DNA of 64,000 nucleotides. It comes from Terebella lapidaria. Lineage: Eukaryota > Annelida > Polychaeta > Terebellida > Terebellidae. The notes beneath the pieces were generated by a model. The model saw only the letters and a program-made list of their open reading frames with translations, was not told the origin of the DNA and did no database searches. The DNA lies in the NCBI GenBank assembly GCA_949152475.1, contig OX424556.1, positions 248,001-312,000 of the forward strand, written 5' to 3'. Numbering within the stretch: the first letter of the stretch is position 1; each line of letters opens with the position of its first letter. This document shows positions 107-61,510 of the stretch, piece by piece. The translations under genes were made by a program, and so were the position numbers.

Positions 107-3100
107 CTGATCAAACAAATACACATCATGCAGAAACCCACAGATAAACTCAGACTCGGTCACCAAGGTTCGTAAGTCTATCACATGACCTCAGGGACTT
201 GGTCACCAAGGTCCGTAAGTCTACCACATGACCTCAGGGACTTGGTCACCAAGGTCCGTAAGTCTACCACATGACCTCAGGGACTTGGTCACCAAGGTCC
301 GTAAGTCTACCACATGACCTCAGGGACTTGGTCACCAAGGTCCGTAAGTCTACCACATGACCTCAGGGGCTTGGTCACCAAGGTCCGTAAGTCTACCACA
401 TGACCTCAGGGGCTTGGTCACCAAGGTCCGTAAGTCTACCACATGACCTCAGGGGCTTGGTCACCAAGGTTCGTAAGTCTACCACATGACCTCAGGGGCT
501 TGGTCACCAAGGTTCGTAAGTCTACCACATGACCTCAGGGGCTTGGTCACCAAGGTCCGTAAGTCTACCACATGACCTCAGGGACTTGGTCACCAAGGTC
601 CGTAAGTCTACCACATGACCTCAGGGACTTGGTCACCAAGGTCCGTAAGTCTACCACATGACCTCAGGGACTTGGTCACCAAGGTCCGTAAGTCTACCAC
701 ATGACCTCAGGGACTTGGTCACCAAGGTCCGTAAGTCTACCACATGACCTCAGGGACTTGGTCACCAAGGTCCGTAAGTCTACCACTTGACCTCAGGGAC
801 TTGGTCACCAAGGTCCCTAAGTCTACCACATGACCTCAGGGATTTGGTCACCAAGGTCCGTAAGTCTACCACATGACCTCAGAGACTTGGTCACCAAGGT
901 CCGTAAGTCTACCACTTGACCTCAGGGACTTGGTCAATAAGGTCCGTAAGTCTACCACATGACCTCAGAGACTTGGTCACCAAGGTCAGTAAGTCTACCA
1001 CTTGACCTCAGGGACTTGGTCACCAAGGTCCGTAAGTCTACCACTTGATCTCAGTCTGTGACAGACCTGACGATGTCGAGATGGAGTCTCGTCCTCAATC
1101 TCTAGATCATCCAGCTCCTCATCATCATCGTCAGGACTCGAGGGGCTCAGATGACGGCCCGCACCTCGCGCCAGCTTCTCCAACACGCCGGTCCGCTGCC
1201 GGGTCTTGATAACACAGACACAATTGTTAGTTCATACTGATTCCGAGCATATATCAGTTGTAGTAAGTTTGAGGATTGTACAATTTCCCTGAAAATCTGA
1301 TGCTGTACACTTGTCTGATAGTGTATTGATTGATGAAGCCTGATTATCTGTTTGAGAAAAACTTGCCTTTGGCTTGGATTTGTGGTTGTGTTTGGGGGCG
1401 GGTACACGTTTTTTGGGTGGTTCATCATCGAAGTCATCAGGATCTGAGTCTGTTGACACACGTGATCGACTGATTGGTCGTTTGGTCGGAGACTGCAATG
1501 TCCAGTTCAACCAGCAGTCAAAACAACAGTGACATGGAGAAGCACATTGGCACGATGTATGACGTTACAGGCTACTACTCTTTTAGAACCTACAATGTCC
1601 CGGCAACAGAACCTGATGCTAAACTCTATCTTGTTCAGACAACAGACACCTGGAGCTAAACTCTACCTTGTCCAGACAACAGACACATGGTGCTAAACTC
1701 TACCTTGTCCAGACAACAGACACCTGATGCTAAACTCTACCTTGTCCAGACAACAGACACCTGATGCTAAACTCTACCTTGTCCAGACAACAGACACCTG
1801 GAGCTAAACTCTACCTTGTCCAGACAACAGACACCTGATGCTAAACTCTACCTTGTCCAGACAACAGACGCATGGTGCTATAAACTCTACCTTGTCCAGA
1901 CAACAGACACCTGATGCTAAACTCTACCTTGTCAAGACAACAGACACCTGGAGCTAAACTCTACCTTGTCAAGACAACAGACACCTGATGCTAAACTCTA
2001 CCTTGTCCAGACAACAGACACCTGATGCTAAACTCTACCTTGTCCAGACAACAAACACCTGGTGCTAAACTGTACCTTGCTTCTAGATGAGTAGGTTGCA
2101 ATTTTTTCACTCTTGACTTTCTTCTGTTGACTGAGCTAAAAGTAGAACAGCAAAATATCATAATCAGGAGACTGTCAGGATTGAGGAGATAAACGCTAGA
2201 TAAACGTCAGTCTGTGGGAGCTGACCTTGACTTCTCGGTCTCGCTCCCGCTCCTGTTTCTCTTGTTCCTCGTCTCGTTCCTCTTCCAGCTCTCGTACCTG
2301 TCGCGACGACGTCACTTGTTTCTGCCGAATAAAACAAACACAGCTAACGTCAGATAGCGGACTCTATTGGTGATCAAACGACACTTAATGATATTGTGAT
2401 AACTAGACAATTCCGGTCGCCTACGACCGCTTGGGTGTATCCCCCGTAGCCTTATCATCCCTGTTGCCCCAAATATATTACTGATAAGTATGGAAAAATT
2501 AGCCCAAAGGCTAAGATAGGTTACCGGACAATTTTGGTTTGGCCATGGCAGCATTGGCAGGTAACAGACCTTGAGATTTACCAATCAAGGTTCGCAGTGT
2601 AAACATATGACCTTGGGATTTACCAATCAAGGTCATCCGTATGAACTTCGATGTAACCATTACATGTATGTGTGCGGCATTTGATATTCTATATGTTGGG
2701 TGGAATCGTTTAGGCCGCTCAGGTTAATTTACACATTCCAAGTCAGACATTTGGCACTCAAGGTCATCTGACGTCAAGTTCAAGGTTATCATTAGTTGTG
2801 CCATATATGTCTTCCTATATGTTCATAATGCAAACAGGAGCTCTATCTGCAAGCATTTCATCTACAAAGGCAAATCTGGGCATTTTTTGACCCCAAAATG
2901 GCTGTTTTGACCTTTCAAGGTCATCCAAGGTCAAATTCAAGGTCACCACACAAGTCGCCATATATGACTTCCGATTTGAAAGTGCCAATTTCTAAGCTCT
3001 ATCTTCAAGCGTTCTATGAGTACAGTCCGGACAGCTCCCATTATGAAGGAAAAAAGTGCCGAAAATTTTCCAAGTCCAAAATTTTTTTCAAAGGGTGAAA

Positions 3101-6100
3101 ATTTTTTTTTGCCTAGAAATGGCCCAAAATGGATAGTAATGTTATTTGGGGCGAAAATTTTTTTTTTCGCCGACTCGTCAAAAATTCAAAATGGCCGCCC
3201 CACTGAGATCGGCGATTCAAGGGCAACAAAACTTATACACGTCGCAGAGGTATATAAGAGGAATCTTTTTAAGCAAAAATCTCAAAACTGATCAGAGAGT
3301 TTTTGAGAAAATACAGACCAGGTGCGAATTTGAGCGTTTTTCGACCCAAAAATGGCTGTTTTGACCTTTCAAGGTCATCCAAGGTCAAATTCAAGGTCAC
3401 CACACAAGTCGCCATATATGACTTCCCATTTGAAAGTGCCAATTTCTAAGCTCTATCTTCAAGCGTTCTATGAGTACAGTCCGGACAGCTCCCATTATGA
3501 AGGGAAAAAGTGCCGAAAATTTTCTAAGTCCAAAATTTTTTTCAAAGGGTGAAAATTTTTTTTTGCTCTAGAAATGGCCCAAAATGGATAGTAATGCGAT
3601 CTGGGGCGAAAAAAATTTTTTTCGCCGACCCGCCAAAAATTCAAAATGGCCGCCACTTGAAAACCGGCAGATTTAGGGCAACCAAACTTATACATATCAC
3701 AGAGGTATATGAGGGGAATCTTTTGAAACCAAAAACTCAAAACTGATCAGACAGTTTTTGAGAAAATGGCCGTCAAAGTCCAAAATTGAGCGTTTTTCGA
3801 CAAAAACGGCCGCCATTTTGAAAAAAATGCGAAAATCAAAAAACAAAAAAATACCTCCTTCTCAAAATATTTTTAGGCATTTTTGTGCAAAATTTCAGAA
3901 AGATTCGATCGTTAACTTTAAAGATAAAAATGTTAACGCCGGACGGACGGACGGACGGACGGACGGACGGACGGACGGACGGACGACGGACGCAACGCCA
4001 TGCCAATAGGTTATCGGACCAAAGGTCCGGTAACCTAAAAATTAGCCCAAAGGCTAAGATAGGTTACCGGACAATTTCGGTTGGGCCATGGCAGCATTGG
4101 CAGGTAACAGACCTTGAGATTTACCAATCAAGGTTCGCAGTGTAAACATATGACCTTGGGATTTACCAATCAAGGTCATCCGTATGAACCTCGATGTAAC
4201 CATTACATGTATGTGTGCGGCATTTGATATTCTATATGTTGGGTGGAATCGTTTAGGCCGCTCAGGTCAATTTACACATTCCAAGTCAGACATTTGGCAC
4301 TCAAGGTCATCTGACGTCAAGTTCAAGGTCATCATTAGTTGTGCCATATATGTCTTCCTATATGTTCATAATGCAAACATGAGCTCTATCTGCAAGCATT
4401 TCATCTACAAAGGCAAATCTGGGCATTTTTTGACCCCAAAATGGCTGTTTTGACCATTCAAGGTCATCGAAGGTCAAATTCAAGGTCACCACACAAGTCG
4501 CCATATATGACTTCCCATTTGAAAGTGCCAATTTCTAAGCTCTATCTTCAAGCGTTCTATGAGTACAGTCCTGACAGCTCCCATTATGAAGGAAAAAAGT
4601 GCCGAAAATTTTCTAAGTCCAAAATTTTTTTCAAAGGGTGAACATTTTTTTTTGCCCTAGAAATGGCCCAAAATGGATAGTAATGCGATTTGGGGCGAAA
4701 AAAATTTTTTTCGCTGACCCGCCAAAAATTCAAAATGGCCGCCACACAGAAACCGGCAGATTTAGGGCAACCAAACTTATACATATCACAGAGGTATATG
4801 AGGGGAATCTTTTGAAACCAAAAACTCAAAACTGATCAGACAGTTTTTGAGAAAATGGCCGTCAAAGTCCAAAATTGAGCGTTTTTCGACAAAAAAAAAT
4901 ACCTCCTTCTCAAAATATTTTTAGGCATTTTTGTGCAAAATTTCAGAAAGATTCGATCGTTAACTTTAAAGATAAAAATGTTAACGCCGGACGGACGGAC
5001 GGACGGACGGACGGACGGACGCAACGCCATGCCAATAGGTTATCGGACCAAAGGTCCGGTAACCTAACTAGAGCAAGGGCTAAAAAAGATTACTAGAGAA
5101 ATGTAAAATCTTAAGCCACAACTGTTTTGTTTTCCACCAAAGTTGCTGCATTGATCTTTCAAGATTATTGAAAGTCAAATTCAAGATCACCTCCAAAATC
5201 ACTGCATATGGATTTCCATTTCGACATGTTTGACAAAATAACGAAATTACAGCCAGATCAATCTTTCCACCTGAAGTTATATGTCAACCCAGAATAGTTG
5301 ACAAACCTGGTTCAAAGTAGATATTCAGAGTAAAAATTGACCAAAACTGCATTTCAAGTTGAAGAAATTGAAACCAGATTGAACTTTTCGCCATGGGTTA
5401 TATTTTAACTCATAATATGTGCCAAACTTGGTTTCAAGTTGAAATTCAATGTAAAAGTTGACCAAAACTGCATTTCAAGATGACGAAATTGAAGCCAGAT
5501 CGAACTTTTCGTCATAAGTTATATTTTAACTCATAATATGTGCCAAACTTGGTTTCAAGTTGAAATTCAAACTAAAAATTGACCAAAACTGCATTTCAAG
5601 ATAACAAATTTGGAGCCAGATCGAACCTTTCACCATAACGTATATTTTATCTCATGATATGTGCCAAACTTGGTTTCAAGTTGAAATTCAAAGTAAAAGT
5701 TGACCAAAACTGCATTTCAAGATGACAAAATGGGAGCCAGATCAATGTTTTCACAAAAAAGTATATTTTCACCTGAAATATGTTCCAAATTAGATTTGAA
5801 TGTGAAATTCCATTACCTGGTTCAGCTCAAAATTAGTTTCCCGTCTTAACTATTCTTTTGAGGTAAATAATAGACTTAACTAGCAAAAATAATGTTAACT
5901 TATTTGGTTACAGCCATAAAACCTCTACTGAACAGAACCTTGTTGAGCCCTTGTTGAGCCTAATAATAAATATTTCTTGTCTTAACTATTTTTATTGTGG
6001 TCAATAATAGACTTAACTAGTAAAAACTAGACGTCAAGGCCTAAAGATGCCTTGGAGGCATTTCAGTGTGATGATTAATTTATAATATATACTAGATATC

Positions 6101-9100
6101 GACGAAAAAGAAAAATGCCGACTCGGCAAAAAAATTTCGGGTCAAAGTCAAAGTTCATCCATAATACCAATTAGACATGTTTGTCTAGGGCGACGAGTCC
6201 AAAAATAACGTCCGTTTCGCTCTACGAAGCACCGTTTCCGAGATATCGACGAAAACGAAAAATGCCGACTCGGCAAAAAAATTTCGGGTCAAGGTCAAAG
6301 TTCATCCATAATACCCCTTAGACATGTTTGTCTAGGGCGACGAGTCCGAAAATAACGTCCGTTTCGCTCTACGACGCACCGTTTCCGAGATATCGACGAA
6401 AACGAAAAATGCCGACTCGGCAAAAAAATTCAAGGTCAAGGTCAAAGTTCATCCATAATACCCCTTAGACATGTTTGTCTAGGGCGACGAGTCCGAAAAT
6501 AACGTCCGTTTCGCTCTACGACGCACCGTTTCCGAGATATGCAGGATGCCTCATGGATGACTCAGCAAAAAATTATTTTGACCTCTAGGTCAAAGGTCGT
6601 TTGACGTATCGATCCCAAAATCAATAGGGTTCTTCCCTGTTGATATATAAACCTTCATGCAAAATTCTGCAACTATTGCCTGAATATTTTTCGAGTTATC
6701 GTCCGGAAACCAAGTTTCAAGATCAGCCTCGATTTCATCCTCAAGGACCTCACGGACCTCGGAGCCGGATCAAAAAAATTAGCCCAATGGGCTAGTAAGG
6801 TTACCGGAGAAATATACAGAGTTAAGCCGAGAAAGTTGAAAGTCAAATTCAAGGTGACCACTGAAATCGCCATATCTCTAACCGTGAAAATGGGATCAAA
6901 GGTTAAATTCTAGATCACCAAACTATTCAGCATACATCATTTCCTATATGTTCACTATGGACCCCTAAGCTGTAAATTTGATAATAAGCGAGATATAAGC
7001 CATTTTGTAATCTGACTTTGAAAATAAAATGACTGACCTTGAAATTTAGGTCAAAGGTCAAACTCAATATCATTAAAATATTCAGAATATCTCATTTCCT
7101 ATATGTTCACAATTGATTCCTAAGCTGTAAAGTCGATAATAAGCAAGATATTAGCCATTTTGTCCTGTTGACCTTGAAAATGAAGTCAAAGGTCAAATTC
7201 AAGGTCATGAGAATTTTCAGCATATATCATTTCCTATATGTTCACAATTAATTCCTAAGCTGTAAAGTCGCTAATAAGCAAGATATTGGCCATTTTGTCC
7301 TGTGACCTTGAAAATAGGTCAAAGGTCAAATTCAAGGTCACGAGCATTTTCAGCATATATCATTGCCTATATGTTCACAATTGATTCCTAAGCTGTAAAG
7401 TCGCTAATAAGCAAGATATTGGCCATTTTGTCCTGTGACCTTGGAAATAGGTCAAAGGTCAAATTCAAGGTCACGAGCATTTTCAGCATATATCATTTCC
7501 TATATGTTCAAAATTGATTCCTAAGCTGTGAAGTCGCTAATAAGCAAGATATTGGCCATTTTGTCCTGTGACCTTGAAAATGAGGTCAAAGGTCAAATTC
7601 AAGGTCACGAGAATATTCAGCATATATCATTTCCCATATGTTCACAATTGATTCCTAAGCTGTGAAGTCGATAATAAGCAAGATATCAGCAATTTTGTCC
7701 TGTGACCTTGGAAATGAGGTCAAAGGTCAAATTCAAGGTCATGAGAATATTCTGCGTATATCATTTCCTTTATGTTCACAATTGATTCCTAAGCTGTAAA
7801 GTCGATAATAAGCGAGATCTTAGCCATTTTGTCATGTGACCTTCAAAATGAGGTCAAAGGTCAAATTCAAGGTCATGAGAATTTTCAGCATATATCATTT
7901 CCTATATGTTCACAATTGATTTCCAAGCTGTTAAGTCGCTGATAAGCAAGATATTGGCCATTTTGTCCTGTGACCTTGAAAATGAGGTCAAAGGTCAAAT
8001 TCAAGGTCACGAGAATTTTCAGCATATATCATTTCCTATATGTTCACAATTGATTCCTAAGCTGTAAAGTCGCTAATAAGCAAGGGATTGGCCAATTTGT
8101 CCTGTGACCTTGAAAATGAGGTCAAAGGTCAAATTCAAGGTCATGAGAATATTCAGCATATATCATTTCCTATATGTTCACAATTGATTCCTAAGCTGTA
8201 AAGTCGATAATAAGTGAGATATTAGCAATTTTGTCCTGTGACCTTGGAAATGAGGTCAGGGTCAAATTCAAGGTCATGAAAATATTCAGCATATATCATT
8301 TCCTATATGTTCACAATTGATTCCTAAACTGTAAAGTCGATAATAAGCGAGATATTAGCCATTTTGTCATGTGACCTTGAAAATGAGGTCAAAGGTCAAA
8401 TTCAAGGTCACGAGAATATTCAGCATATATCATTTCCTATATGTTCACAATTGATTCCTAAGCTGTAAAGACGATAATAAGCGAGATATTAGCCATTTTG
8501 TCCTGTGACCTTGAAAATGAGGTCAAAGGTCAAATTCAAGGTCACGAGAATTTTCAGCATATATCATTTCCTATATGTTCACAATCGATTCCTAAGCTGT
8601 AAAGTTGCTAATAAGCAAGATATTGGCCATTTTGTCCTGTGACCTTGAAAATGAGGTCAAAGCTCAAATTCAAGGCCACGAGAATATTCAGCATATATCA
8701 TTTCCTATATGTTCACAATTGATTCCTAAGCCGAAATGCCTTAATAATGTCAACTTTTTCGGTTACATCCATGAAATCTGTACTGGACAAAACCTTTATC
8801 TTGTTGAGCTCAATAATAAATGTTTCTCGTCTTAACTATTTATATTGAGGTCAATAATAGACTTAACTAGACGCTTCCGGTCGCCTACGACCGCTTGGGT
8901 GTATCCCCCGTAGCCCTATCATCCCTGTTGCCCCAAATATATCGCTGATGTACATTGTGAGTGTGAAACCTTTCAAGCTTATTGAAGGTCGAATTCAAGA
9001 TCACCACTAAAATCATTGCATTCGAATTTCCATTTCGACATGTTCGAAAATACCGAAAAATAAAAAAAATAACGAAATTACAGCCAGATAAAAGTTTTCA

Positions 9101-12100
9101 CCTAAAGCTATATTTCAACTCATAATATTTGACAAACTTGGTTCCAAGTTGCGAGATGACTAAATTGGAGCCAGATCGAACTTTTCACTATAAGTTATAT
9201 TTCAACTCATACTACCGGTATGTGCCAAACTTGGTTCCAAGTTGAAATTCAAAGTAAAAGTTGACCAAAACTACATTTCAAGATGACAAAATTGGAGCCA
9301 GATCAACTTTTAACTATAGTTTAAATTTTAATTCATAATATGTGCCAAACTTGGTTTCAAGTTGAAATTCGAAGTAAAAATTGACTTTACTGGTAAAAAT
9401 AATGTTAACTTATCCGATTACACCCATGAAATCTCTACTGGACAAAAATTTTAAATTGTTGAGCTCAATAATAAATGTTTCTTGTCTTAACTATTTTTCT
9501 TGAGGTCAATAATAGACTTAACTAGTAAAAATGATGTTAACTTATTCGGCTACAGCCATGAAATCTCTACTGCAAAGAAGCTTTACCTTGTTGAGCCCAA
9601 TAATGAATGTTTCTTGTCTTAACTATTTTTATTGCGGTCAATAATAGACTTAACTAGTAAAAATAATGTTAACTTATTCGGTTACACCTGTGAAATCTCT
9701 ACTGGACAAAACCTTTACCTTGTTGAGCTCAATAATAAATGTTTCTTGTCTTAACTATTTTTCTTGAGGTCAATAATAGACTTAACTAGTAAAACCAATG
9801 TTAACTTATTCAGTAATATTGTTCTTTTTTCACCAAAAACATCAGTTCTGTATTCTGAACAAGAATCCAGTGCAATTTGCTTTCATAGTACAGGTTATTG
9901 GAGTGATCACACATGTCAAAGTAGGTATTTTAATTGTCGTAATAAGTTAACCTCTCAAACTTATTAATATTTATTCGATCATTCTGAAAAACAATAGGTT
10001 TCGTGTGATGGTCTTTCTCATTGAGCCTGTGCGATTTCATCATCATTCATTGAAAACTCCCACCCGTAGAGCGTTCACAACCCATGTGTGTTAAACAGGC
10101 TAATTTGACCACAAAATGTTACGCCAATCGGCTATTTTGGTTGCTATGGCAACCAAAATCGATAGGTGTCCAGATCTCACCATAAGACATGTCCATATGA
10201 AATATTATCAAAATTGGTTCATATTTGCAAGCTGCAGCGCGTTCACAAGAAAGTGTCTGCGGACGCGGATGCGGACGCGGACGCGGACGCGGCGGCGGCG
10301 GCGCGACGATCGTAAATCCATAGTATCCGCCGAACTTTGTTCGGGGGATACAACTAGCAAAAATAATGTTAACTTATTTGGCTAAACCCACAAAATCTCT
10401 ACTGGACATAACCTTTACCTTGTTGAGCCCAATAATAAATATATCTTGTCTTAACTATTTTTATTGTGGTCAATAATAGACTTAACCAGTAAAAATAATT
10501 TCAACTTATTCGGTTACACCCATGAAATTTGTACAGGACGAAATTTTTACCTTGTTGAGCTTAATAATAAATGTTTCTCATCTTAACTATTTTTATTGTG
10601 GGAAATAATAGACCTAACTAGTAAAACTAACGTTAACTTATTCAATAATATTGTTCTGTTTTCACCCAAAACATCCGTTCTCTATTCTGAACAAGAATCC
10701 ATTGCCATTTACTTTCATAATACAGGGTATTGGAGTGAGCACAGATGTCAAAGTGGGTATTTTAAAGGTCGTAATAAGTTAGTCCATTAACTAATTAATA
10801 TTTATTTGATCATTCTGAAAAACAATAGGTTTCGTGTGACGGTCTTTCTCATCGAGCCTGTGCGATTTCATGATCATTCAATGGAAACTCCCACTTGTAC
10901 AGCGTTCACAAGCCATGTGTGTTAAACAGTCTAATTTGAGCACAAAATGTGTCGCCAATCGGCCAATTTGGTCGCTATGGCAACCAAAATCGATTGGTGT
11001 CGGGATCTTACCATAAGATGTGTCTGTATAAAGAATTATTAGAATCGGTTATGATTTGCAACCTGTAGAGCGTTCACAAGAAAATCTCTACGGCGGACGC
11101 GGCGCGACGGAGACAAATCCATAGTATCCGCCGAACTTCGTTCGGGGGATACAATTACAACCACAGCCATTGTTGCTACAGAAATCATTGTCTAACTCGA
11201 TCATTCGTAGCATGTATGTTACATACACATGACCCTACAACAATAAACATAACCTAACAGCATTTTAAAAGCTGTATGTTTCAAACAAGACAAACATGTA
11301 GAAAAATTAGCCCAAGGGCTAAGAAAGGCTATCGGACCATATATATTTTAGATATCAGTATTTTGTCCTGTGACCTTGAAAATAAGGTCATTGGTCAATT
11401 CAAGAACACGATAATATTCGGCATATGTCATTTCTAATATGTCCACAATTGATTCCTAAGCTGTAAAGGCGATAATAAGCGAGATATTAGCCATTTTGTC
11501 CTGTGACCTTGAAAATTAGGCCAAAGGTGAAGTTCAAGGTCATGACAATGTTCAGAATATATCATTTTCTATATGTTCACAATTAATTGCTAAGCTGTAA
11601 AGTCGATAAAAAGCAAGATATTAGCCAGTTCGTTCTCTGACCTTGAAAATGAAATGAGGTCAAAGGTCAAATTCAAGGTCATAGCAATATTCAACATATA
11701 TCATTTCCTATATGTTCATAATTGATTCCTCAGCTGTAAAGTCGATAATAAGCGAAATATTAGCCATTTTGTCCTGCGACCTTGAAAATGAGGTCAAAAG
11801 TCAAATTCAAGGTTATGAGCATATTCAGCATATATCACTTCCTATATGTCCACAATTGATTGCTAATCTCTAATTTCAATATTAAGTGAGATATTTGGAA
11901 ACATAGGCCCAAGGGACCTGTAGCTTACTGGATAGCAAATAGGTGATCGGACCGATGGTCTGGTAACTTCATGGTTGCAAATTTATTCAGAATATATCAT
12001 TTCCTATATGTCTGCAATTGATTCCTAAGCTGTAAAGTCGATAAAAAGCGAGATATCAGCCATTTTGTGCTCTGACCTTAAAAATGAGGCCAAAGGTCAC

Positions 12101-34771: not shown

Positions 34772-34774
34772 AAA

Positions 34775-36299: not shown

Positions 36300-36301
36300 A
36301 A

Positions 36302-42421: not shown

Positions 42422-42472
42422 CCAACATGTGTCGGTTTTTCCGCGTGACGCGGAAAAAACGACATATGTTGG
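42422..42472. other. 51-bp inverted repeat (strong hairpin)
   Basis: Arms of about 24 bp, beginning CCAACATGTGTCGG on the left and ending CGACATATGTTGG on the right, meet at TTTCCGCG, TGA and CGCGGAAA. There are two mismatches. It lies in otherwise unrecognised intron sequence (42321-42830). Confidence 0.88.
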
Positions 42473-47326: not shown

Positions 47327-47462
47327 CACCAAGGGTGCTGTAGCTCACCGGCAATCATGTGAATTGCAAAGAATACTGAATACATATAAATTGTTACACT
47401 GATGTTAAAATCAATATGTTAAAACATCTTCGTAAATGTTGATAGAAACACATTTTCTGTAT
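47327..47462 (+). mobile_element. 5' end of a probable E-family element
   Basis: TAGCACCAAGGGTGCT forms a hairpin and is followed by the key TAGCTCACCGGC, the same plan as A with changed bases. Its matching 3' hairpin may be the E-type end at 61479-61510, which would make one 14-kb nest. Confidence 0.5.
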
Positions 47463-47867
47463 GCACAGTGCACAATCAGTTTGAAGATTTGGTCACTGGA
47501 GGTGGTTCTTTTCTGCAAATTTCATGGAATACAGGCAAGTCCAATTTTAGGCTGTTGAGTTCGGTGATGTAAATGCATACTAAAATCGGAGAACTACTCA
47601 ATAGAATAATGTAGTTACGTTCAATACACTCAAAACTGATTATTAGAGGCGATTGAACAACATGACAGCAGATATTTTTTGATGCAGAGCGAGCACAATG
47701 TAAACATTCCCCATTTATCACCCATTTCACACCCAAACGTATCAATTTCTCCGTTATATTTGACTGTGTCACGCATCAAATTTGACATTAGATGAGCGAT
47801 TCAACACTTTATCATATACACACGCTAGAACCATGGGGGTTCCTCTGATCTTGACAAAATCTATTTG

Positions 47868-48757: not shown

Positions 48758-48900
48758 GTTGTGGTTTGCCGAGTCCCATATGAGATGCAGATCTGACCCA
48801 CTAGGCGATGCATCATTGACTCACAAGGGGATGAAGAAATGTACCACCATTTCGGTCCATGAAATTCGTTTTTCTTTGTAGAAAATCCCATATTTACTCA

Positions 48901-49664
48901 TTTCATGTTATTTTTTCCTAATTCAAAACTTCTAGAATGGATAGTACACGAATAAACGTGTCATTAAATCTAAGTGTGTTATAATGCAATAAACTTGCAA
49001 GTGATGGTTATCGTGGTGCATGGTTTGAGAAGTATCATTATACCAGGAAATGAGCACCAAAAAAGACCATGTTGTCGAAGAACATACAACATCTCTGGTA
49101 ACATTTCGACATTTGCCTGTAACTCTTCGTCCTGGGGAGTGAAGGAAGTATGAGATTCGCCTGCATCATCATAACTGTTTCCGAATAAATTTTTCTTCTT
49201 CAATGATTTTATTTCATCAAGAACTTTTTTTGTTTGGCTGCTGGACTCTTCCCAGGAGTTATAGTCAATGCACTCACGTTAACGGAGAGGTCTTCCTCTA
49301 CCTGTATACAGAATATATTTTGTTCTGTAATGTGTCCCCTAAAACTCCATATGTCTTTGAGTGCATGTTGCATGGTCCGTCCACTCTGTTCACACAACTG
49401 TGGTACTCTCATTTTTACCCAGTGTTCTGGGTGATGATTAATGAAATGCTCTAATACTGAAAACGCATGATGTGACTTGTAGTCACAATATCCACAGGTT
49501 ATTAGATTTTCCATTGTGATCTTGTACGCGTTTCTGAACTGTTAATGACTGTTAACCATCACATGCAAGTTTATTGCTTTATACCATACTAATATTCGAT
49601 GACACGTTTATTCGTGTACTATTCCATTCTAGAAGTTTTGAATTAGGAAAGAAATAATATGAAA
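48901..49664. repeat. Inner inverted repeats of the long-TIR transposon
   Basis: TCCTAATTCAAAACTTCTAG and ACACGAATAAACGTGTCA on the left reappear inverted on the right, over about 100 bp with few mismatches. They form the inner part of the arms. Confidence 0.85.
49209..49514 (-). CDS. Small C2H2-like zinc-finger reading frame in a transposon core
   Basis: The reading frame of 101 codons starts MENLITCGYCDYKSHHAF and continues SVLEHFINHHPEHWVKM, giving C-x2-C-x12-H-x4-H or a nearby His pair. The zinc-finger part is followed by LCEQSGRTMQHALKDIW. A possible splice donor (ACAG then GTAGAG) lies after FCIQ. Another frame downstream to about 48990 reads LPEMLYVLRQHGLFW and could be a second exon. 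I take it as the N-terminal part of a transposase-like or accessory protein of the surrounding element, not a host gene. Confidence 0.4.
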   Translation of the reverse strand: MENLITCGYCDYKSHHAFSVLEHFINHHPEHWVKMRVPQLCEQSGRTMQHALKDIWSFRGHITEQNIFCIQVEEDLSVNVSALTITPGKSPAAKQKKFLMK

Positions 49665-50166
49665 CTAGACGTCAAGGCCTAAAGATGCCTTGGGGCATTT
49701 AGCTCTATTCCTACCTAATATGTAACGAAGAGACCAGGTCTAGAAGCATGATGATCCTGAAGACGTCCGTGGTCAAAGTTTAACTGACATACCCCTTAGG
49801 CATCTTTGTGTAGACTGTCTGTTCTGATTTATGACACACCGTTCCTGAGATATCGACTAAAATCAAGAATGCTGAATTAGCAGAAAAGTTCAGGTCAAGG
49901 TCAGAGTTCATCCCTGATATTCTTTAGACATGTTTGTCTAAGGCGACGAGTCTAAAAATAACACCCGTTTTGCTCTACGACGCACCGTTTCTGAGATATC
50001 GAAAACATTGAATCGAAGAAAATTTCGACACCAGGAGTCGTCGCCACCCAATATACCCCCTAGACTAGTTTGTCTAGTGCCAGGAGGCGAAACTCCGTTT
50101 TGCTCTATGACGCACCGTTTCCAAGATATGGCCAAACAGGAATTGCTGAGTCGGAGAAAAAAAAAA

Positions 50167-51831
50167 TTAGCCCAAGGGCTAAGATAGGTTACCGGACAAC
50201 TTTAGTTGAAACAGGACAGGTGAGATATGACGTTAAGATAAACCAATCATCTTCGTGAACGTCAATGTCATCATTAAGTGTGCAGCATATAACCTTGTAT
50301 TCATGTATGTTCAAAATACAAATACAAGGTCTATCTACAAGTCTTTTGTCTATAAACGAAATTTACACATTTCTTGTTGGACGTGACACTGAGATATAGC
50401 ACTCAATGTCATCTGACGTCAAGTTCAACGTCACCCAAAAAAGCCACATATATATGTGGTATACATGTATATGACTTCCAATTCCAGCTATACCTACAAA
50501 CATTTTTTGGCTGTAGAGGCCAATTTACACACTCAAGGGGCCTTTTAAGCAATTCAAAGCACTCCATCTTTATACACAATGTCAGGGACCCCAATTAGCA
50601 TGTTTTATAACAAAAATCTCAAAACTGATCAGATAAATTTGAAGGAAAACGACCAAAAATTAAATTTGGGGCCTATTCAGCCTAAATTTCTAGCCTTTTG
50701 AGCAATTCAAGGCACTTTATACACTATATACATATTTATACACATCATGTCAAAAACCCCAATTACTATGTTTTGAAATAAAAATCTCAAAAGTGATCAG
50801 GCAGTTTTCGATTAAAGACAAACAAGGTGCAAATTTGGGCATTTTTCGACTCAAAAATGGCTGTTTTGACATTTCAAGGTCATCCAAGGTCAAATTCAAG
50901 GTCACCACACAAGTCTTCATATATGACTTCCCATTCGAAAGTGCTAATTTCTAAGCTCTATCTTCAAGCATTCTATGAGTACAGTCTAGGCAGCTCCCAT
51001 TATGATTCGTCGACCCGTCAAAAATTCAAAATGGCCGCCACACGGAGACCAGCGATTCAAGGGCAACAAAACTTATACACATCATAAAGGTACATAGAGG
51101 GAATCTTCTGAAACGAAAATCTCAAAACTGATCAGACAGTTTTCGAGAAAAGACAGAAAAGCTGCAAATTTGGGCATTTTTCGACCCAAAAATGGCTATT
51201 TTGACCTTTCAAGGTCATCCAAGGTCAAATTCAAGGTCACCACACAAGTCGCCATATATGACTTCCCATTTGAAAGTGCCAATATCTAAGCTCTATCTTT
51301 AAGCGTTCTATGAGTACAGTCCGGGCAGCTCCCATTATGAAGGAAAAAGGTGCCGAAAATTTTCCAAGTCCAAAATTTTTTTCAAAGGGTGAAAAATTTT
51401 TTTTTGCCTAGAAATGGCCCGAAAATTTTTTTTCGCCGACCCGTCAAAAATTCAAAATGGCCGCCACACGGAGACCGGCGATTCAAGGGCAACAAAACTT
51501 ATACACATCATAAAGGTACATAAGGGGAATCTTTTGAAACAAAAATCTCAAAACTGATCAGACAGTTTTTGAGAAAATGGCCGCCAAAGTCCAAAATTGG
51601 CCATTTTTCGTCAAAAATGGCCGCCATTTTGAGAAAAATGCGAAAATCAAAAAACTAAAAAAAAACCCCCTCTTGAAATATTTTTAGGCATTTTTGTGCA
51701 AAATTTCAGAAAAATCCGCCTGTAAACTTTCAAGATACAGCTGTGGACGGACGACGGACGCCGGACGACGGACGGACGACGGACGCAACGTGACGGCAAT
51801 AGGTTATCGGACCATAGGTCCGGTAACCTAA
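50167..51831 (+). mobile_element. A3 element, copy 1
   Basis: It starts TTAGCCCAAGGGCTAAGATA with key AGGTTACCGGAC, then sequence special to A3 (GAAACAGGACAGGTGAGATA). It contains two 454-bp-type units in shortened form and a GACGGAC-rich tail with a hairpin. It is inserted in a C unit between GGAGAAAAA and TTGACACCAGG. Confidence 0.85.
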
Positions 51832-52315
51832 AAATTGACACCAGGGGTCGTATCGACCCGATAAAACCCCCTAGACTAATTCGTCTATAGTGTGAAGAGG
51901 CCGAAATTAAGCTCCGTTTCGCTCTATGACGCACCGTTTCCGAGATAGGCCAAACAGGAAGTGCCGAGTCGGAGCAAAAAAAGTGGTCTTCTCGACCCAA
52001 GATACCACCCTAGCCTAGTTTGTCTAGTGTCACGAGGCCGAAATTGAGCTCCGTTTCGCTCTACGACGCACCGTTTCCGAGATACGGCCAAACAGGAAGT
52101 GCCGAGTCGCAGAAAAAAAATTTGACACCAGGTGTTGTCTCGACCCCAGATACCCGCTAGGCTAGTTTGTCTAGTGGCACGAGGCAGAAATTCAGCTCCG
52201 TTTCCGAGATACGGCCAAACAGGAAGTGCCGAGTCGGCGAAAAAAAAGTCGACATCAGTGGTCGTCTCAACCCAAGATACCCCCTAGACTAGTTTATCTA
52301 GTGCCAGGAGGCCGA

Positions 52316-54349
52316 AATCAAGCTCCGTTTCGCTCTATGACGCACCGTTTCCGAGATAAGGCCAAACGAGAAGTGCCGAGTCGGCGAAAAAAAAATCGAC
52401 ACCAGGGGTCTTCTCGACCCAAGATACCACCCTAGCCTAGTTTGTCTAGTGCCACGAGGCAGAAATTGAGCTCCATTTCGCTCTACGACGCACCGTTTCC
52501 GAGATACGGCCAGACAGGAAATGCCGAGTGGGCGTAAGAAAATTCGACACCAGGGGTCTTCTTGACCCAAGATACCACCCTAGCCTAGTTTGTCTAGTGC
52601 CACGAGGCAGAAATTGAGCTCCGTTTTGCGCTACGATGCACCATTTCCAAGATACGGCCAAACAGGAAATGCCGAGTCGGCGAAAAAAAACTCGACACCA
52701 GTGGTCGTCTCGACCCAAGATACCCCCTAGACTAGTTTGTCTAGTGCCAGGAGGCCGAAATTAAGCTCCGTTTCACTCTATGACGCACCGTTCCTGAGAT
52801 ACGGCCAAACAGGAAGTGCCGAGTCGGCGAAACAAAATTCGACTCCAGGGGTCTTCTCCACCCAAGCCTAGTTTGTCTAGTGCCACGAGGCAGAAATTGA
52901 GCTCCGTTTCGCTCTACGATGCACCGATTCCGAGATACGGCCAAACAGGAAGTGCCGAGTGGGCGCAGGAAAATTCGACACCAGGGGTCTTCTCGACCCA
53001 AGATACCACCCTAGCATAGTTTGTCTAGTGCCAGGAGGCCGAAATTAAGCTCCGTTTCGCTCTACGACGCACCGTTTCCGAGATACGGCCAAACAGGAAG
53101 TGCCATGTCGGCCAAGAAGAAATTCGACATCAGGGGTCTTCTCGACCCAAGATGCGACGGTAGCCTAGTTTGTCTAGTGCCACGAGGCAGAAATTGAGCT
53201 CCGTTTCGCTCTACGATGCACCGTTATACGGCCAAACAGGAAGTGCCGAGTCGGCGAAACAAATTCAACACCAGGGGTCTTCTCGACTCGAGATACCATT
53301 CTAGTCTAGTTTGTCTAGTGCCAGCAGGCCGAAATCAAGCTCCGTTTCGCTCTATGACGCACCGTTTCCGAGATACGGCCAAACGAGAAGTGCCGAGTCG
53401 GCGAAAAAAAAATCGACACCAGGGGTCTTCTCGACCCAAGATACCACCCTAGCCTAGTTTGTCTAGTGCCACGAGGCAGAAATTGAGCTCCATTTCGCTC
53501 TACGACGCACCGTTTCCGAGATACGGCCAGACAGGAAATGCCGAGTGGGCGTAAGAAAATTCGACACCAGGGGTCTTCTTGACCCAAGATACCACCCTAG
53601 CCTAGTTTGTCTAGTGCCACGAGGCAGAAATTGAGCTCCGTTTTGCGCTACGATGCACCATTTCCAAGATACGGCCAAACAGGAAATGCCGAGTCGGCGA
53701 AAAAAAACTCGACACCAGTGGTCGTCTCGACCCAAGATACCCCCTAGACTAGTTTGTCTAGTGCCAGGAGGCCGAAATTAAGCTCCGTTTCACTCTATGA
53801 CGCACCGTTCCTGAGATACGGCCAAACAGGAAGTGCCGAGTCGGCGAAACAAAATTCGACTCCAGGGGTCTTCTCCACCCAAGCCTAGTTTGTCTAGTGC
53901 CACGAGGCAGAAATTGAGCTCCGTTTCGCTCTACGATGCACCGATTCCGAGATACGGCCAAACAGGAAGTGCCGAGTGGGCGCAGGAAAATTCGACACCA
54001 GGGGTCTTCTCGACCCAAGATACCACCCTAGCATAGTTTGTCTAGTGCCAGGAGGCCGAAATTAAGCTCCGTTTCGCTCTACGACGCACCGTTTCCGAGA
54101 TACGGCCAAACAGGAAGTGCCATGTCGGCCAAGAAGAAATTCGACATCAGGGGTCTTCTCGACCCAAGATGCAACGGTAGCCTAGTTTGTCTAGTGCCAC
54201 GAGGCAGAAATTGAGCTCCGTTTCGCTCTACGATGCACCGTTATACGGCCAAACAGGAAGTGCCGAGTCGGCGAAACAAATTCAACACCAGGGGTCTTCT
54301 CGACTCGAGATACCATTCTAGTCTAGTTTGTCTAGTGCCAGCAGGCCGA
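52316..54349. repeat. Higher-order tandem duplication, 2 x 1017 bp, in C
   Basis: Seven C units (52316-53332) are repeated as a block at 53333-54349, offset 1017 bp, with only a few substitutions seen. Neighbouring single units differ far more from each other than the two blocks do. Confidence 0.92.
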
Positions 54350-55814
54350 AATTAAGCTCCGTTTCGCTCTACGACGCACCGTTTCCGAGATACGGCCAAT
54401 CAGGAATTGCTGAGTGGGCGTAAGAAAATTCGACACCAGGGGTCTTCTCGACCCAAGATACCACCCTAGCCTAGTTTGTCTAGTGTCAGGAGGCCAAAAT
54501 TAAGCTCCGTTTCGCTCTACGACGCACCGTTTCCGAGATACGGCCAAACAGGAAGTGCCGAGGCGGCGAAAAAAATTCAACACCGGGGGTCGTCTCGACC
54601 CAAGATACCCCCTAGACTAGTTTGTCTAGTGCCAGAAGGCCGAAATTAAGCTCCGTTTCGCTCTACGATGCACCGTTTCCGAGATACGGCCAAACAGGAA
54701 GTGCCGAATCGGCGAAAAAAAATTCAACACCAGGGGTCGTCTCGACCCAAGATACCCCCTAGACTAGTTTGTTTCTAGTGCCAGGAGGCCGAAATTAAGC
54801 TCCGTTTCACTCTACGACGGACCGTTTCCGAGATATGCATAAAAGACTCAAGGATGAATCGGCAAAAAATCTTTCGAGCTGTAGGCCAAAGGTCGTTCGA
54901 CGAACTGTCCCCAAAATCAATAGGGTTCTTCCCTGGTGGTATGTGAACCTCCATGCACAGTTATACAGAATATTTTAGGAAGACTTTTTGAGTTATCGCT
55001 CAGAAACCAAGTCCAAAAATAAACATTGAATCAGGCCTCACGGACCTCACGGACCCCGGAGCCGGCTCAAAAACAATAGGGGTCTTCCATGTAATATTTC
55101 TGACCACTGGTGTAAATTTGGACAAGATCCGTTCAGGCGTTCCCGAGTTATTGATCAGAAACCAAAACGGCGGAAAGTGAAAAGAAAAGAAAAAAAAACA
55201 AAAAACAAAAACAGACAAAACGATAAGGGCATTTCGTGCCGAAATGCCCTAATTAGTAAATTGGTGATTTTCTACAAAGAAAAACGATTTTCATGGACCG
55301 AAATAGTGGTACATTTCTTCATCCCCTTGTGGGTCAATGATGCATCGCCTAGTGGGTCACATCTGCATCTCATATGGGACTCGGCAAACCACAAAAACAA
55401 ATAGATTTTGTCAAAATCAGAGGAACCCCCATGGTTCTAGCGTGTGCTTACGATAAAGTGATGAATCGCTCATCTAATATCAAATTTGATGCGTGACACA
55501 GTCAAATATAACGGAGCAATTAATACCTTTGGGTGTGAAAAGGGTGATAAATGGGGAATGTTTACATTGTGCTCGCTCTGCATCAAAAAATATCTGCTGT
55601 CATGCTGTTTAATCGCCGCTAATAATCCGTTTTGAGTATATTGAACGTAACTACAGTATTCTATTGAGTAGTTCTCCGGATTTAGTATGCATTTGCATCA
55701 CCAAACTGAACAGCCTAAAATTTACCTTGCCTTTTTTCCGCGAAATTTGGAGAAAAGCACCACCTCCAGTGACCAAATCTTCAAACTGATTGCGCACTGT
55801 GGTATGGACTATAA

Positions 55815-56296
55815 TACAAAATCAAGTTACATCTTGAAAGATTTTTTTTGTTAATGACAAATTTTCACAGATAGTCGATTCAAAGGCAACAAAACTTATA
55901 CACATCACAAACGTACATAAGGATGATCTTATACATGATTTTGAGGAAAACTGTCTGAATAAATTTCGATAAAATGACCACCAAAGGCAAAATTCATCGT
56001 TTTTTCGACAAAAAAGGTCGTTTTGACCTTTCAAGGTCATTGAAGGTCAAATTCAAGGTCACCACTCAATCCGCAATATATGATTTCCCATTTGAATGTG
56101 CCAATACTTAGGCTCTGTGCCAATCTTGAAGTGTTCTATGAGAATACTCTGCATATCTCCCATTATGAAAGAAAAATTGGGTGAAATTTTCCAAGTCAAA
56201 AAAAAATTTTCAATGGTCAAAAAAAAAAATTGGCTCAAAACGAATAGTGACTTGATTTGGGACAAAAAATTTTTTTTTTTGCCGACTCGTCAAAAA
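55815..56296 (+). repeat. Diverged A/E-type unit
   Basis: It resembles the 454-bp A1 unit (TTTTGACCTTTCAAGGTCAT, GCAACAAAACTTATACACAT) but with many differences. Similar diverged units recur at 61007-61440, ahead of the E-type 3' end. Confidence 0.65.
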
Positions 56297-58402
56297 TTAG
56301 CCCAATGGGCTAGAAAGGTTACCGGAGAAATATACAGAGTTAAGCTGAGAAAGTTGAAGGTCAAATTCAAGGTGACCACTGAAATCGCCATATCTCAAAC
56401 CTTGAAAATGGGATCAAAGGTTAAATTCTAGATCACCAAACTATTCAGCATACATCATTTCCTATATGTTCACTATGGACCCCTAAGCTGTAAATTTGAT
56501 AATAAGCGAGATATAAGCCATTTTGTAATCTGACTTTGAAAATAAAATGACTGACCTTGAAATTTAGGTCAAAGGTCAAATTCAATATCATTAAAATATT
56601 CAGAATATCTCATTTCCTATATGTTCACAATTGATTCCTAAGCTGTAAAGTCGATAATAAGCGAGATATTAGCCATTTTGTCCTGTTGACCTTGAAAATG
56701 AGGTCAAAAGTCAAATTCAAGGTCACAAGAACATTCAGCATATATCATTTCCTATATGTTCACAATTGATTCCTAAGCTGTAAAGTCGATAATAAGCGAG
56801 ATATTAGCCATTTTGTCCTGTTGACCTTGAAAATGAGGTCAAAAGTCAAATTCAAGGTCACTAGAATATTCAGCATATATCATTTCCTATATGTTCACAA
56901 TTGATTTCTAAGCTGTAAAGGCCCTAATAAGCAAGATATTGGCCATTTTGTCCTGTGACCTTGAAAATGAGGTCAAAGGTCAAATTCAAGGTCATGAGAA
57001 TATTCAGCATATATCATTTCCTATATGTTCACAATTGATTCCTAAGCTGTAAAGTTGATAATAAGCGAGATATTAGCCATTTTGTCATGTGACCTTGAAA
57101 ATGAGGTCAAAGGTCAAATTCAAGGTCATGAGAATTTTCAGCATATATCATTTCCTATACGTTCACCATTGATTCCTAAGCTGTAAAGTCGCTAATAAGC
57201 AAGATATTGGTCGTTTTGTCCTGTGACCTTGAAAATGAGGTCAAAGGTCAAATTCAAAGTCACGAGAATTTTCAGCATATATCATTTCCTATATGTTCAC
57301 AATGATTCCTAAGCTGTAAAGTCGCTAATAAGCAAGATATTGGCCATTTTGTCCTGTGACCTTGAAAATGAGGTCAAAGCTCAAATTCAAGGCCACAAGA
57401 ATATTCAGCATATATCATTTCCTATATGTTCACAATTGATTCCTAAGCTGTAAAGTCGATAATAAGCGAGATATTAGCAATTTTGTCCTGCGACCTTGGA
57501 AATGAGGTCAAAGGTGAAATTCAAGGTCACGAAAATATTCAGCATATATCATTTCCTATATGTTCACAATTGATTCCTAAACTGTAAAGTCGATAATAAG
57601 CGAGATATTAGCCATTTTGTCATGTGACCTTGAAAATGAGGTCAAAGGTCAAATTCAAGGTCACAAGAATATTCAGCATATATCATTTCCTATATGTTCA
57701 CAACTGATTCCTGAGCTGTAAAGTCGATAATAAGCGAGATATTAGCCATTTTGTCCTGTGACCTTGAAAATGAGGTCAAAAGTCAAATTCAAGGTCACGA
57801 GAATATTCAGCATATATCATTTCCTATATGTCCACAATTCATTCCTAGTCTCTAATTTCAATATTAAGTGAGATATTAGGCTTAATGTGTGCCATTATAA
57901 AGCATAGGAAAATTTAACATGGGAAAGTCACATTTGGGCCGAGTTTGGGCCCAAAATGGCCCACTTCAAGCGATTCAAGCGCAACGAAATTTATACATGC
58001 CACAGGGGTACATATGAGGAGTGTTTTTCATCAATAAGAAAAAAAAGTTACTGAACAGATTTTGAGAAAACGACCGTCGAAGTCCAAAATTGGCCATTTT
58101 TCGACGAAAACGGCCGCTCTGACCTTGAAACCAAGGTCAGAGGTCAAATTCAAGGTCATGACAATATTCAGCATATATCATTTCCTATATGTCCACAATT
58201 GATTCCTAGTCTCTAATCTCAAAATTAAGTGAGATATTAGGCTTTAATGTGTCCCATTATAAAGCATAGGAGAATTTAACATGGGAAAGTCCCATTTGGG
58301 CCGAGTTCGGGCCCAAAATGGCCCACTTCGAGCGATTCAAGCGCAACGAAATTTATACATGTCACAGGGGTACATATGAGGAGTGTTATGCATCAATAAA
58401 AA
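56297..58402 (+). mobile_element. A2 element, about 13 units, A1 inserted in its 3' section
   Basis: It starts TTAGCCCAATGGGCTAGAAA and closely follows the copy at 21336, then shows a partly repeated 3' section (57890-58110 and 58250-58400). A1 begins after ATGCATCAATAAAAA, the same point as at 13260. Confidence 0.8.
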
Positions 58403-61006
58403 TTAGCCCAAAGGCTAAGATAGGTTACCGGACAATTTTGGTTTGGCCATGGCAGCATTGGCAGGTAACAGACCTTGAGATTTACCAATCAAGGTTCGCA
58501 GTGTAAACATATGACCTTGGGATTTACCAATCAAGGTCATCCGTATGAACTTCGATGTAACCATTACATGTATGTGTGCGGCATTTGATATTCTATATGT
58601 TGGGTGGAATCGTTTAGGCCGCCTAGGTCAATTTACACATTCCAAGTCAGACATTTGGCACTCAAGGTCATCTGACGTCAAGTTCAAGGTCATCATTAGT
58701 TGTGCCATATATGTCTTCCTATATGTTCATAATGCAAACATGAGCTCTATCTGCAAGCATTTCATCTACAAAGGCAAATCTGGGCATTTTTTGACCCCAA
58801 AATGGCTGTTTTGACCTTTCAAGGTCATCGAAGGTCAAATTCAAGGTCACCACACAAGTCGCCATATATGACTTCCCATTTGAAAGTGCCAATTTCTAAG
58901 CTCTATCTTCAAGCGTTCTATGAGTACAGTCCTGACAGCTCCCATTATGAAGGAAAAAAGTGCCGAAAATTTTGTCCAAAATTTTTTTCAAAGGGTAAAA
59001 AATTTTTTTTGCCTAGAAATGGCCCAAAATGGATAGTAATGTTATTTGGGGCGAAAAAAATTTTTTTCGCCAACTTGTCAAAAATTCAAAATGGCCGCCA
59101 CACTGAAGTCGGCGATTCAAGGGCAACAAAACTTATACACGTCACAGAGGTATATAAGAGGAATCTTTTTAAGCAAAAATCTCAAAACTGATCAGACAGT
59201 TTTTGAGAAAATACAGACCAGGTGCAAATTTGAGCGTTTTTCGAACCAAAAATGGCTGTTTTGACCTTTCAAGGTCATCCAAGGTCAAATTCAAGGTCAC
59301 CACACAAGTCGCCATATATGACTTCCCATTTGAAAGTGCCAATTTCTAAGCTCTATCTTCAAGTGTTTTATGAGTACAGTCCTGACAGCTGCCATTATGA
59401 AGGAAAAAAGTGCCGAAAATTTTCCAAGTCCAAAATTTTTTTCAAAGGGTGAAAAATTTTTTTTGCCTAGAAATGGCCCAAAATGGATAGTAATGCGATT
59501 TGGGGCGAAAAAATTTTTTTTCGCCTACTCGTCAAAAATTCAAAATGGCCGCCACACGGAGATCGGCGATACAAGGGCAACAAAACTTATACACGTCACA
59601 GAGGTATATATAAGAGGAATCTTTTTAAACAAAAATCTCAAAACTGATCAGACAGTTTCCGAGAAAATACAGACCAGGTGTAAATTTGGGCATTTTTCGA
59701 CCCAAAAATGGCTGTTCTGACCTTTCAAGGTCATCCAAGGTCAAATTCAAGGTCACCACACAAGTCGCCATATATGACTTCCCATTTGAAAGTGCCTATT
59801 TCTAAGCTCTATCTTCAAGTGTTCTATGAGTACAGTCCGGACAGCTCCCATTATGAAGGAAAAAAGTGCCGAAAATTTTCCAAGTCCAAAATTTTTTTCA
59901 AAGGGTGAAAAAATGTTTTTTTACACAAGTCGCCATATATGACTTCCCATTTGAAAGTGCCAATTTCTAAGCTCTATCTTCAAGTGTTTTATGAGTACAG
60001 TCCTGACAGCTGCCATTATGAAGGAAAAAAGTGCCGAAAATTTTCCAAGTCCAAAATTTTTTTCAAAGGGTGAAAAATTTTTTTTGCCTAGAAATGGCCC
60101 AAAATGGATAGTAATGCGATTTGGGGCGAAAAATTTTTTTTTCGCCTACTCGTCAAAAATTCAAAATGGCCGCCACACGGAGATCGGCGATACAAGGGCA
60201 ACAAAACTTATACACGTCACAGAGGTATATATAAGAGGAATCTTTTTAAACAAAAATCTCAAAACTGATCAGACAGTTTCCGAGAAAATACAGACCAGGT
60301 GTAAATTTGGGCATTTTTCGACCCAAAAATGGCTGTTCTGACCTTTCAAGGTCATCCAAGGTCAAATTCAAGGTCACCACACAAGTCGCCATATATGACT
60401 TCCCATTTGAAAGTGCCAATTTCTAAGCTCTATCTTCAAGTGTTCTATGAGTACAGTCCGGACAGCTCCCATTATGAAGGAAAAAAGTGCCGAAAATTTT
60501 CCAAGTCCAAAATTTTTTTCAAAGGGTGAAAAAATGTTTTTGCCTAGAAATGGCCCAAAATGGATAGTAATGCGATTTGGGGCGAAAAAAATTTTTTTCG
60601 CCGACCCGCCAAAAATTCAAAATGGCCGCCACACGGAAACCGGCGAATTTAGGGCAACCAAACTTATACATATCACAGAGGTATATGAGGGGAATCTTTT
60701 GAAACCAAAAACTCAAAACTGATCAGACAGTTTTTGAGAAAATGGCCGTCAAAGTCCAAAATTGAGCGTTTTTCGACAAAAACGGCCGCCATTTTGAAAA
60801 AAATGCGAAAATCAAAAAACAAAAAAATACCTCCTTCTCAAAATATTTTTAGGCATTTTTGTGCAAAATTTCAGAAAGATTCGATCGTTGACTTTAAAGA
60901 TAAAAATGTTAACGCCGGACGGACGGACGGACGGCTAGACGGACGGACGGACGACGGACGCAACGCCATGCCAATAGGTTATCGGACCAAAGGTCCGGTA
61001 ACCTAA
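58403..61006 (+). mobile_element. A1 element, expanded to four units
   Basis: The ends are as in other A1 copies, but the 454-bp unit is present in four forms (starting near 58802, 59252, 59708 and 60329). The third step is 621 bp because of a partial duplication. The GGAC repeat is broken by GGCTAGAC at about 60935. Confidence 0.85.
59297..60545. repeat. 621-bp tandem duplication inside A1
   Basis: Sequence from about 59304 to 59924 is repeated at 59925-60545, almost identically (one or two differences in the A/T runs). The join, at TGTTTTT then TTACACAAGTCGCC, lacks part of a unit. Confidence 0.85.
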
Positions 61007-61510
61007 AAATTGGGTGAAATTTTTCAAGTCCAAAAAATGTTCAATGGCCAAAAAAAATTTTTTTTTTTTTTTTGCTGGAAATGGCTCAAAACGAATAGTG
61101 ACTTGATTTGAGACCAAAAAAATTTTTTTCGTCGACCCGTCAAAAAATCAAAATGGCCGCCACACGCAGACCGGCGATTCAAGGGCAACGAAACTTATAC
61201 ACATCATAGAGGTACATGAGGAGAATGTTTTGAAACAAAAATCTCAAAACTGATCAGACAGTTTTTGAGAAAATGGCCACCAAAGTCCAAAATTGGCAAT
61301 TTTTCGTCAAAAATGGCCGCCAAATCGGCAAAAACGATTCAATAAAAAAAATCAAAAAATTTTTTTAGATATTGGCCTAAGGTATGTTCTGACAAATTTA
61401 TGGAAAAATTCATCATGCCAAAAAAAAGTTACAGACCCGGACGGACGACGGACGGACGCAGACGAAAAACCACGATAATAGCTTATCGGCCCAAAGGGCC
61501 GGTAAGCTAA
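61007..61510 (+). mobile_element. E-family 3' end with covarying hairpin
   Basis: Diverged A-like 3' half followed by ATAGCTTATCGGCCC, loop AAA, GGGCCGGTAAGCTA and tip CTAA (61479-61510). Compared with A hairpins, two base pairs are changed on both sides, so pairing is kept. Confidence 0.8.

Follow-up and report, generated by a model that had tools for sequence, protein, structure and literature searches.

Five families of repeated elements, designated A, B, C, E and F, lie in the window analysed here, a stretch of 64,000 nucleotides from the annelid Terebella lapidaria (contig OX424556.1, positions 248,001 to 312,000). According to a preliminary description, each family bears near one end a short "key" that recurs in the arms of a hairpin at the other. 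What kind of elements are these, and is the relation between their ends a new rule? We consider them to be non-autonomous rolling-circle transposons of the Helitron2/Helentron (HINE) kind, with a probability of about 0.9. The families are new; their architecture is already published. Four or five families in the window follow the end plan published for Helitron2, and nested copies fix several boundaries.

Throughout, "tail" denotes the end previously taken as 5' (small hairpin plus key) and "head" the hairpin previously taken as 3'. Element strands are given in Helitron2 orientation, which is the minus strand; the preliminary reading corresponds to the plus strand.

Organization and orientation of element ends

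All key and hairpin strings quoted for the five families were found in the window, and in each family the sequence beside the small hairpin of the tail reappears in the head hairpin, with uneven strength. The proposed likeness to Helitron2/Helentron ends is right, the published end plan fitting when the elements are read on the other strand. An element of that plan begins 5' with the ATIR hairpin, the small hairpin being placed at its 3' end. Because it appears on the opposite strand, the 5' and 3' ends of the preliminary description are probably swapped. The ATIR is what was described as the "matched key"; its constant relation to the hairpin has already been published for Helitron2, so that no new rule is involved.

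The ends can be seen directly. On the minus strand, a T-rich target is followed by the 5' ATIR hairpin, a microsatellite (in A and B2), a body often containing tandem arrays, and the 3' ATIR. Behind the latter come the small hairpin, CTAG or CTAA (with variants in E and F) and T-rich target. A start in (C/T)TAG or CTAA, as previously described for every family on the plus strand, fails for E, which starts with CATAG. The arm of the 5' ATIR measures 14 nt in A and E, 13 in B, 11 in C and 9 in F, and in all five families it folds onto downstream bases with a 3-nt loop. Short ATIRs, terminal at the 5' end and subterminal at the 3' end, are clear in A, B and F, fair in E and weak in C. The distance from element end to key, about 20-30 bp in the Helitron2/Helentron plan, is 18 nt in A, 19 in E, 22-24 in F, 28 in C and 35 in B. 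Between 3' ATIR and 3' end, the small hairpin was detected by scan in A, B and F and by inspection in C and in the E tail at 47322; it is poor in the E tail at 16584.

CGGA-type microsatellite arrays adjoin several A heads and GCGGAC adjoins the B2 head; no such microsatellite is listed alongside C and F heads. Tandem arrays within elements are built of 134-, 132- and 148-bp monomers. Other tandem arrays in the window comprise two of 31 bp with different units (26953-31452, about 145 copies; 25700-26549, about 27 copies), one of 43 bp (153-1054) and one of 37 bp (1596-2079).

Following published work on such elements, a Rep/helicase supplied in trans would nick the 5' end and copy round, and pairing between 5' and 3' ATIRs, together with the small hairpin, would act as replication stop. 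If ATIR pairing serves as the stop, the two ends should match.

Families and their ends

Twelve A tails were found, 11 with the exact 13-nt key and one (14816) with a single change. Seven further tails are A-type: two have an AAGG variant, four belong to sister type X (key AAGGTTACC), and the one at 11307 is diverged, with T at key position 8. The A subfamily of 17843..20365 carries the key AAGGTTACCGGAC. A heads amount to 19 full-length copies on the plus strand plus two inverted ones. Three heads and three tails belong to B, and one of each to F. Besides the head and tail of C already described, we detected a second tail (6025) and a half head (8732). E has a single head (61479). Its exact key occurs at 16603 only, and the tail paired with the E head (47341) departs from it by a single base; the third E-type tail, at 11921, is diverged. 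Weak head-like matches are drawn from among the matches listed. Mapped elements are summarized in Table 1.

Five families with keys of their own are indeed present, but A and E are relatives, so only about four are independent. The key was said to be repeated in both arms of the hairpin: in A and B the reverse complement of the right arm equals the key exactly, but the left arm is one base off.

Table 1. Elements mapped in the window, with the outcome of joining their flanks (strand in Helitron2 orientation)
Element	Position	Strand	Ends and contents	Joined flanks
B1	2402..11152	-	tail 2402, key 2437-2446, head hairpin 11124-11152; encloses A, C2/X, B2	
Two tandem A in B1	2499..5066 (2499-4037, 4042-5066)	-		uninterrupted B 42901-43197, 87%
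C2	6025..8742	-	tail 6025; half head, one arm only, 8732-8742; X (A-type) nested from 6779	16 alignments without insert, most in 132-bp-type repeats
B2	8866..10351	-	key 8901-8910, head 10323-10351	132-bp array without insert, several places
A	13260..14793	-	key 13278-13290, head 14763-14793	no clean empty site
A	14798..15731	-	adjoins preceding A head; three stacked heads 15557, 15631, 15701	
A subfamily	17843..20365	-	in AAAGATA(n) site of other A-type element	many A paralogues
X (A-type)	20530..~25043	-	damaged A head 25014-25043; encloses F	15 alignments at same A-type site, 14 outside own head region
F	22691..24885	-	key 22713-22723, head 24865-24885	15 A-type loci without insert
Three tandem A	33695..37734 (33695-34770, 34775-36298, 36302-37734)	-		no clean empty site
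A subfamily	39288..41807	-	in AAAGATA(n) site of A 37857-41914	A paralogues, at most 98%
B3	42902..45682	-	key 42937-42946, head 45654-45682	no uninterrupted paralogue found
E	47322..61509	-	tail 47322, key 47341, head 61479-61509; C1, X, A copies inside	no empty site
C1	49664..55253	-	key about 49692, head 55226-55250; 8-nt key match only	inverted copy 49010-48752, 89%
A in 148-bp array of C1	50167..51830	-		many array units
A	58403..61005	-	key 58421, head 60975-61005	no empty site
A adjoining E head	61514..62828	-	head 62798-62828	no clean empty site

Specificity of the match between heads and tails

To score the match, regions of 60 nt from the tail start were compared with the outer arm of every family's head, the best ungapped match (+1/-2) being taken; the tails were those already named by the preliminary description (for E, 47322), and the test is not blind. 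Own-family scores were 13 for A, 10 for B, 9 for F, 9 for E and 8 for C. Assignment of each tail to the head of its own family ranks top of 120 permutations (49; runner-up 41). Among 20,000 shuffled 60-mers, the own score was reached at a frequency of 0 for A and B, 0.00015 for F, 0.00045 for E and 0.0022 for C. The family-specific match is thus directly observed: within the window, the expectation that each key fits its own hairpin better than those of other families holds strongly for A, B and F and less so for E and C.

An untargeted scan was also performed for hairpins whose outer-arm 9-mer recurs at most 9 kb upstream with a small hairpin alongside. On the plus strand (62 hairpins) it recovered A, B and F, together with two hairpins unrelated to them; on the minus strand (63 hairpins) it gave four matches, all unrelated. 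E, with ends 14 kb apart, and C, with its 8-nt match, were missed because of the limits of the scan. The hairpin at 42430-42464 was considered as a new family and rejected: no plus-strand match passed the small-hairpin filter, and on the minus strand there is one 9-mer, 184 bases off.

We regard it as unlikely that the matches of C and E reflect chance or decay, with the rule holding in A, B and F only. The shortness of the C match, the absence of both families from the untargeted scan (by its limits) and the pairing energies of C and of E tail 47341, which do not favour the own tail (see below), would agree with chance. On the other hand, C2 has the same layout, and in C and E the longest common runs are 8 and 9 nt between own ends versus 7 and 8 nt between crossed ends. 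Moreover, positions 4 and 12 have changed in concert between A and E, the head arm, its opposite arm and the tail all being altered.

Among the 19 A heads, the two arms vary by 0.75% and 1.5%, the loop by 19% and the adjoining 20 bp by 8.3%. One apparent clash of types was encountered: the head downstream of E-type tail 16584 is an A head (20416-20446), though a decayed head-like stretch is found beside this tail at 16617. Joined flanks of that pair gave no empty site in the window.

Insertion sites, nesting and tandem copies

To examine element boundaries, the sequences on either side of an element were joined, and an uninterrupted paralogue of the product was sought in the window. Such paralogues were accepted for nine insertions or insertion groups, representing A, B, C, F and X, all with A-rich targets; none of the nine sites shows a target duplication. 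In the first round, 17 of 23 joined queries aligned across the joint and six were accepted (the A tandem in B1, B2, C1, A 50167-51830, A 17843-20365 and A 39288-41807). For C1 the paralogue is a single inverted copy, gapped by 9 bases next to the joint. In the second round, the joint was crossed by 8 of 22 queries, of which F, X and C2 were accepted, C1 being counted from the first round and the first-round F crossing being set aside as superseded. The remaining 14 gave no crossing alignment within the window, nor did, in the first round, B1, B3, E, A 58403, the outer A 37857-41914 and the 13260-15731 pair.

Several crossings were rejected. Those of A 2499, 4042, 13260, 14798 (both versions), 33695, 34775, 36302 and 61514 taken singly represent the element itself or its tandem neighbour, and the same is true for the first-round match of the 33695 tandem. 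Second-round crossings of E, the 33695 tandem and 33254-33690 are artefacts. The joint of the stacked heads at 14797-15661 was crossed in nine alignments and is left out of the evidence. X plus A (56297-61005) is not claimed as a single unit, the pairwise alignment not being clean.

Tail and head of B1 are paired by inference, as the window gave no uninterrupted paralogue. E 47322-61509 was likewise joined into one element because an identical E-specific 26-mer stands on both sides of its inner insert, at 56234 and 61085; the A-type version of this 26-mer occurs at 17 other places, with at most four changes.

Insertion between As (Ts on the Helitron2 strand) and nesting are directly observed. 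All 27 tails listed have AA at their start (TT on the Helitron2 strand). Elements are mostly in one orientation and often nested in one another. Six of the 27 tails adjoin a head directly. Another three are located at an A-run near an A-type head (AAAGATA-n), which A-type elements offer at 15 sites, these three included, and two at a second A-run (GAAAATCAAAA), present at 10 sites including those two. Tandem and read-through arrangements have been described for Helitrons (PMC4067079; Helraiser, PMC4778049).

A heads also occur in stacks of three (15557-15731) and four (41777-42319), 70-250 bp apart and with few matching tails. They may have arisen through successive insertions into a single site or through bypass of an end; as evidence for copying direction they were discarded, being compatible with both directions. 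At 62798-62905 two A heads stand together, the second of them truncated, and a similar inverted copy of the pair lies about 165 bp off, at 63070-63186. The truncated heads at 25103 and 62884 (A) and 8732 (C) are all broken within or beside the hairpin loop. C1 is flanked by an inverted repeat (47464-47873 / 55392-55801, 92% identity), possibly an older inverted-repeat element; another inverted stretch lies at 48752-49010.

Two other readings of these elements have to be weighed against rolling-circle transposons of reversed orientation. If the original orientation were right, the elements would start with the small hairpin and end with the large one, a new end plan. Tandem, nested and stacked copies fit both directions and no coding sequence orients the elements, yet the features given in the texts on Helitron2 and Helentron termini, i.e. 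terminal ATIR hairpin at the 5' end, subterminal ATIR and small hairpin at the 3' end and microsatellite near the 5' end, all fit the other strand, which makes this reading quite improbable. Still less credible are cut-and-paste MITEs with ordinary terminal inverted repeats. They would explain one short sequence inverted at both ends, but the repeats are asymmetric, with one of them in a hairpin, and the accepted joined-flank tests lack target duplication. Target duplications, which the preliminary description named, along with a transposase having TIR-type ends, as contrary to its reading, are not seen at the accepted empty sites.

Coding content and copies outside the window

Of 59 stop-to-stop frames of at least 95 aa in the window, 20 were compared with Pfam. 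No Rep/helicase was found among these 20, so that no protein ties these ends to Helitron2/Helentron. Non-autonomous copies are by definition devoid of Rep/helicase, a protein that in Helentrons includes an endonuclease domain. The sole frame of the 20 above a family cut-off is zf-CW (16304-16606, minus strand, E 2e-11), the closest solved structures being MORC2; intronic sequence of a MORC2-like minus-strand gene may lie in the window.

The A head, A tail, 134-bp monomer and B head each had no exact-pattern match in viral contigs, nor had the A head any in prokaryotic genome contigs. These results say little because the collections are viral and prokaryotic. Six end and repeat strings of the families had no match in the literature searched, a search to which Repbase did not belong.

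A constant mismatch in the 5' hairpins of A, E and B

All 22 counted heads of A and E (19 A, two inverted A and one E) have a non-partner opposite the eighth base of the 5' ATIR; damaged head 25014, truncated heads 25103 and 62884 and diverged heads 11936 and 16617 stand outside this count. In B, it is the seventh base that is unpaired, in 3/3 heads. In both cases the mismatch is the seventh pair from the loop, on the inner hairpin arm, and read on the Helitron2 strand it is C.A in A and E and C.C in B. The 3' ATIR fits the terminal arm at the mismatch base in 18 of 19 A-type tails (diverged 11307 being the exception), in all three E-type and in all three B tails. C and F have no such mismatch, their stems being perfect and shorter.

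When folded with DNA parameters, A, E and B lose about 5 kcal/mol through the flaw on the Helitron2 strand, compared with about 2.3-3.4 on the opposite one. Pairing of the terminal arm, again on the Helitron2 strand, is stronger to its own tail than to the hairpin arm in A (-16.5 vs -12.6 kcal/mol), B (-14.7 vs -11.2) and F (-11.5 vs -10.5). In C the hairpin arm is the stronger partner (-14.3 vs -10.5 for the tail). E tail 47341 is level with the arm (-14.0 vs -14.2), and the other E tail is stronger (-16.4). On the strand of the preliminary reading, E tail 47341 reaches -12.9 against -15.6 for the arm, and an A tail is no worse (-13.1).

Selection could conceivably, though rather doubtfully, keep the 5' ATIR hairpin imperfect, so that the far-end ATIR would displace the arm as stop and/or Rep would read the unpaired base for strand and family. 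The idea draws on bacterial analogues. As described in the text of PMC8266576, HUH transposases read unpaired bases (T17 in IS608, a mismatched base in ISDra2), and the bulge of the E. coli REP is required for activity; since another REP group consists of perfect palindromes, an unpaired base is no general need of HUH enzymes.

A copies share ancestry, and 22/22 therefore does not mean 22 events. Independent cases are only A/E and B, which makes the mismatch a lead and not a result. Their common seventh-pair position is weak alone, at an estimated chance of about 1 in 12 by position. The constant flaw may nevertheless be the part worth following: if functional, it would provide a testable cue to how eukaryotic rolling-circle transposases recognize ends and choose matching ones.

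Comparison with known systems

Helitron2 elements, according to the text of Bao & Jurka (2013, PMC3627910), have 8-15 bp ATIRs, the 5' one in a terminal hairpin and the 3' one upstream of a small hairpin, with compensatory changes and a T-rich target; duplications are rare in their short non-autonomous families. The elements described here resemble them in all these respects. ATIR pairing was suggested there to open the 5' hairpin and set the replication end, as a possible rolling-circle stop, and some Helitron2 contain reversed genes. The present elements differ in that no RepHel was seen (20 of 59 frames) and in the fixed 5' hairpin mismatch, of which the Helitron2 text, figures and supplements aside, makes no mention.

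FoHeli1/2 of Fusarium oxysporum likewise have ATIRs, hairpins at both ends and differing stems in related subgroups, but are autonomous, with other termini and target (text of PMC5148889). Helentrons and HINEs (DINE-1-like; text of Thomas et al. 2014, PMC4067079), compared by description and not by sequence, share 12-15 bp palindromic subTIRs, a 3' palindrome, insertion at TT, microsatellites, tandem repeats and empty sites without duplication. HINEs have no coding capacity, a microsatellite close to the 5' subTIR and, in some cases, tandem repeats in the centre, a description that the present elements fit; a partner Helentron was not found among the 20 of 59 frames compared. Cg_HINE of Crassostrea gigas, as presented in the text of PMC7492417, consists of a subTIR with complementary IR, a GTCC-type microsatellite beside the 5' subTIR, satellite-like central arrays, and then a subTIR and palindrome. 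A-type elements resemble it in both microsatellite and central arrays, the CGGA microsatellite beside the A head corresponding to the GTCC type. The 134-, 132- and 148-bp monomers of the window are likened to the oyster arrays by layout only.
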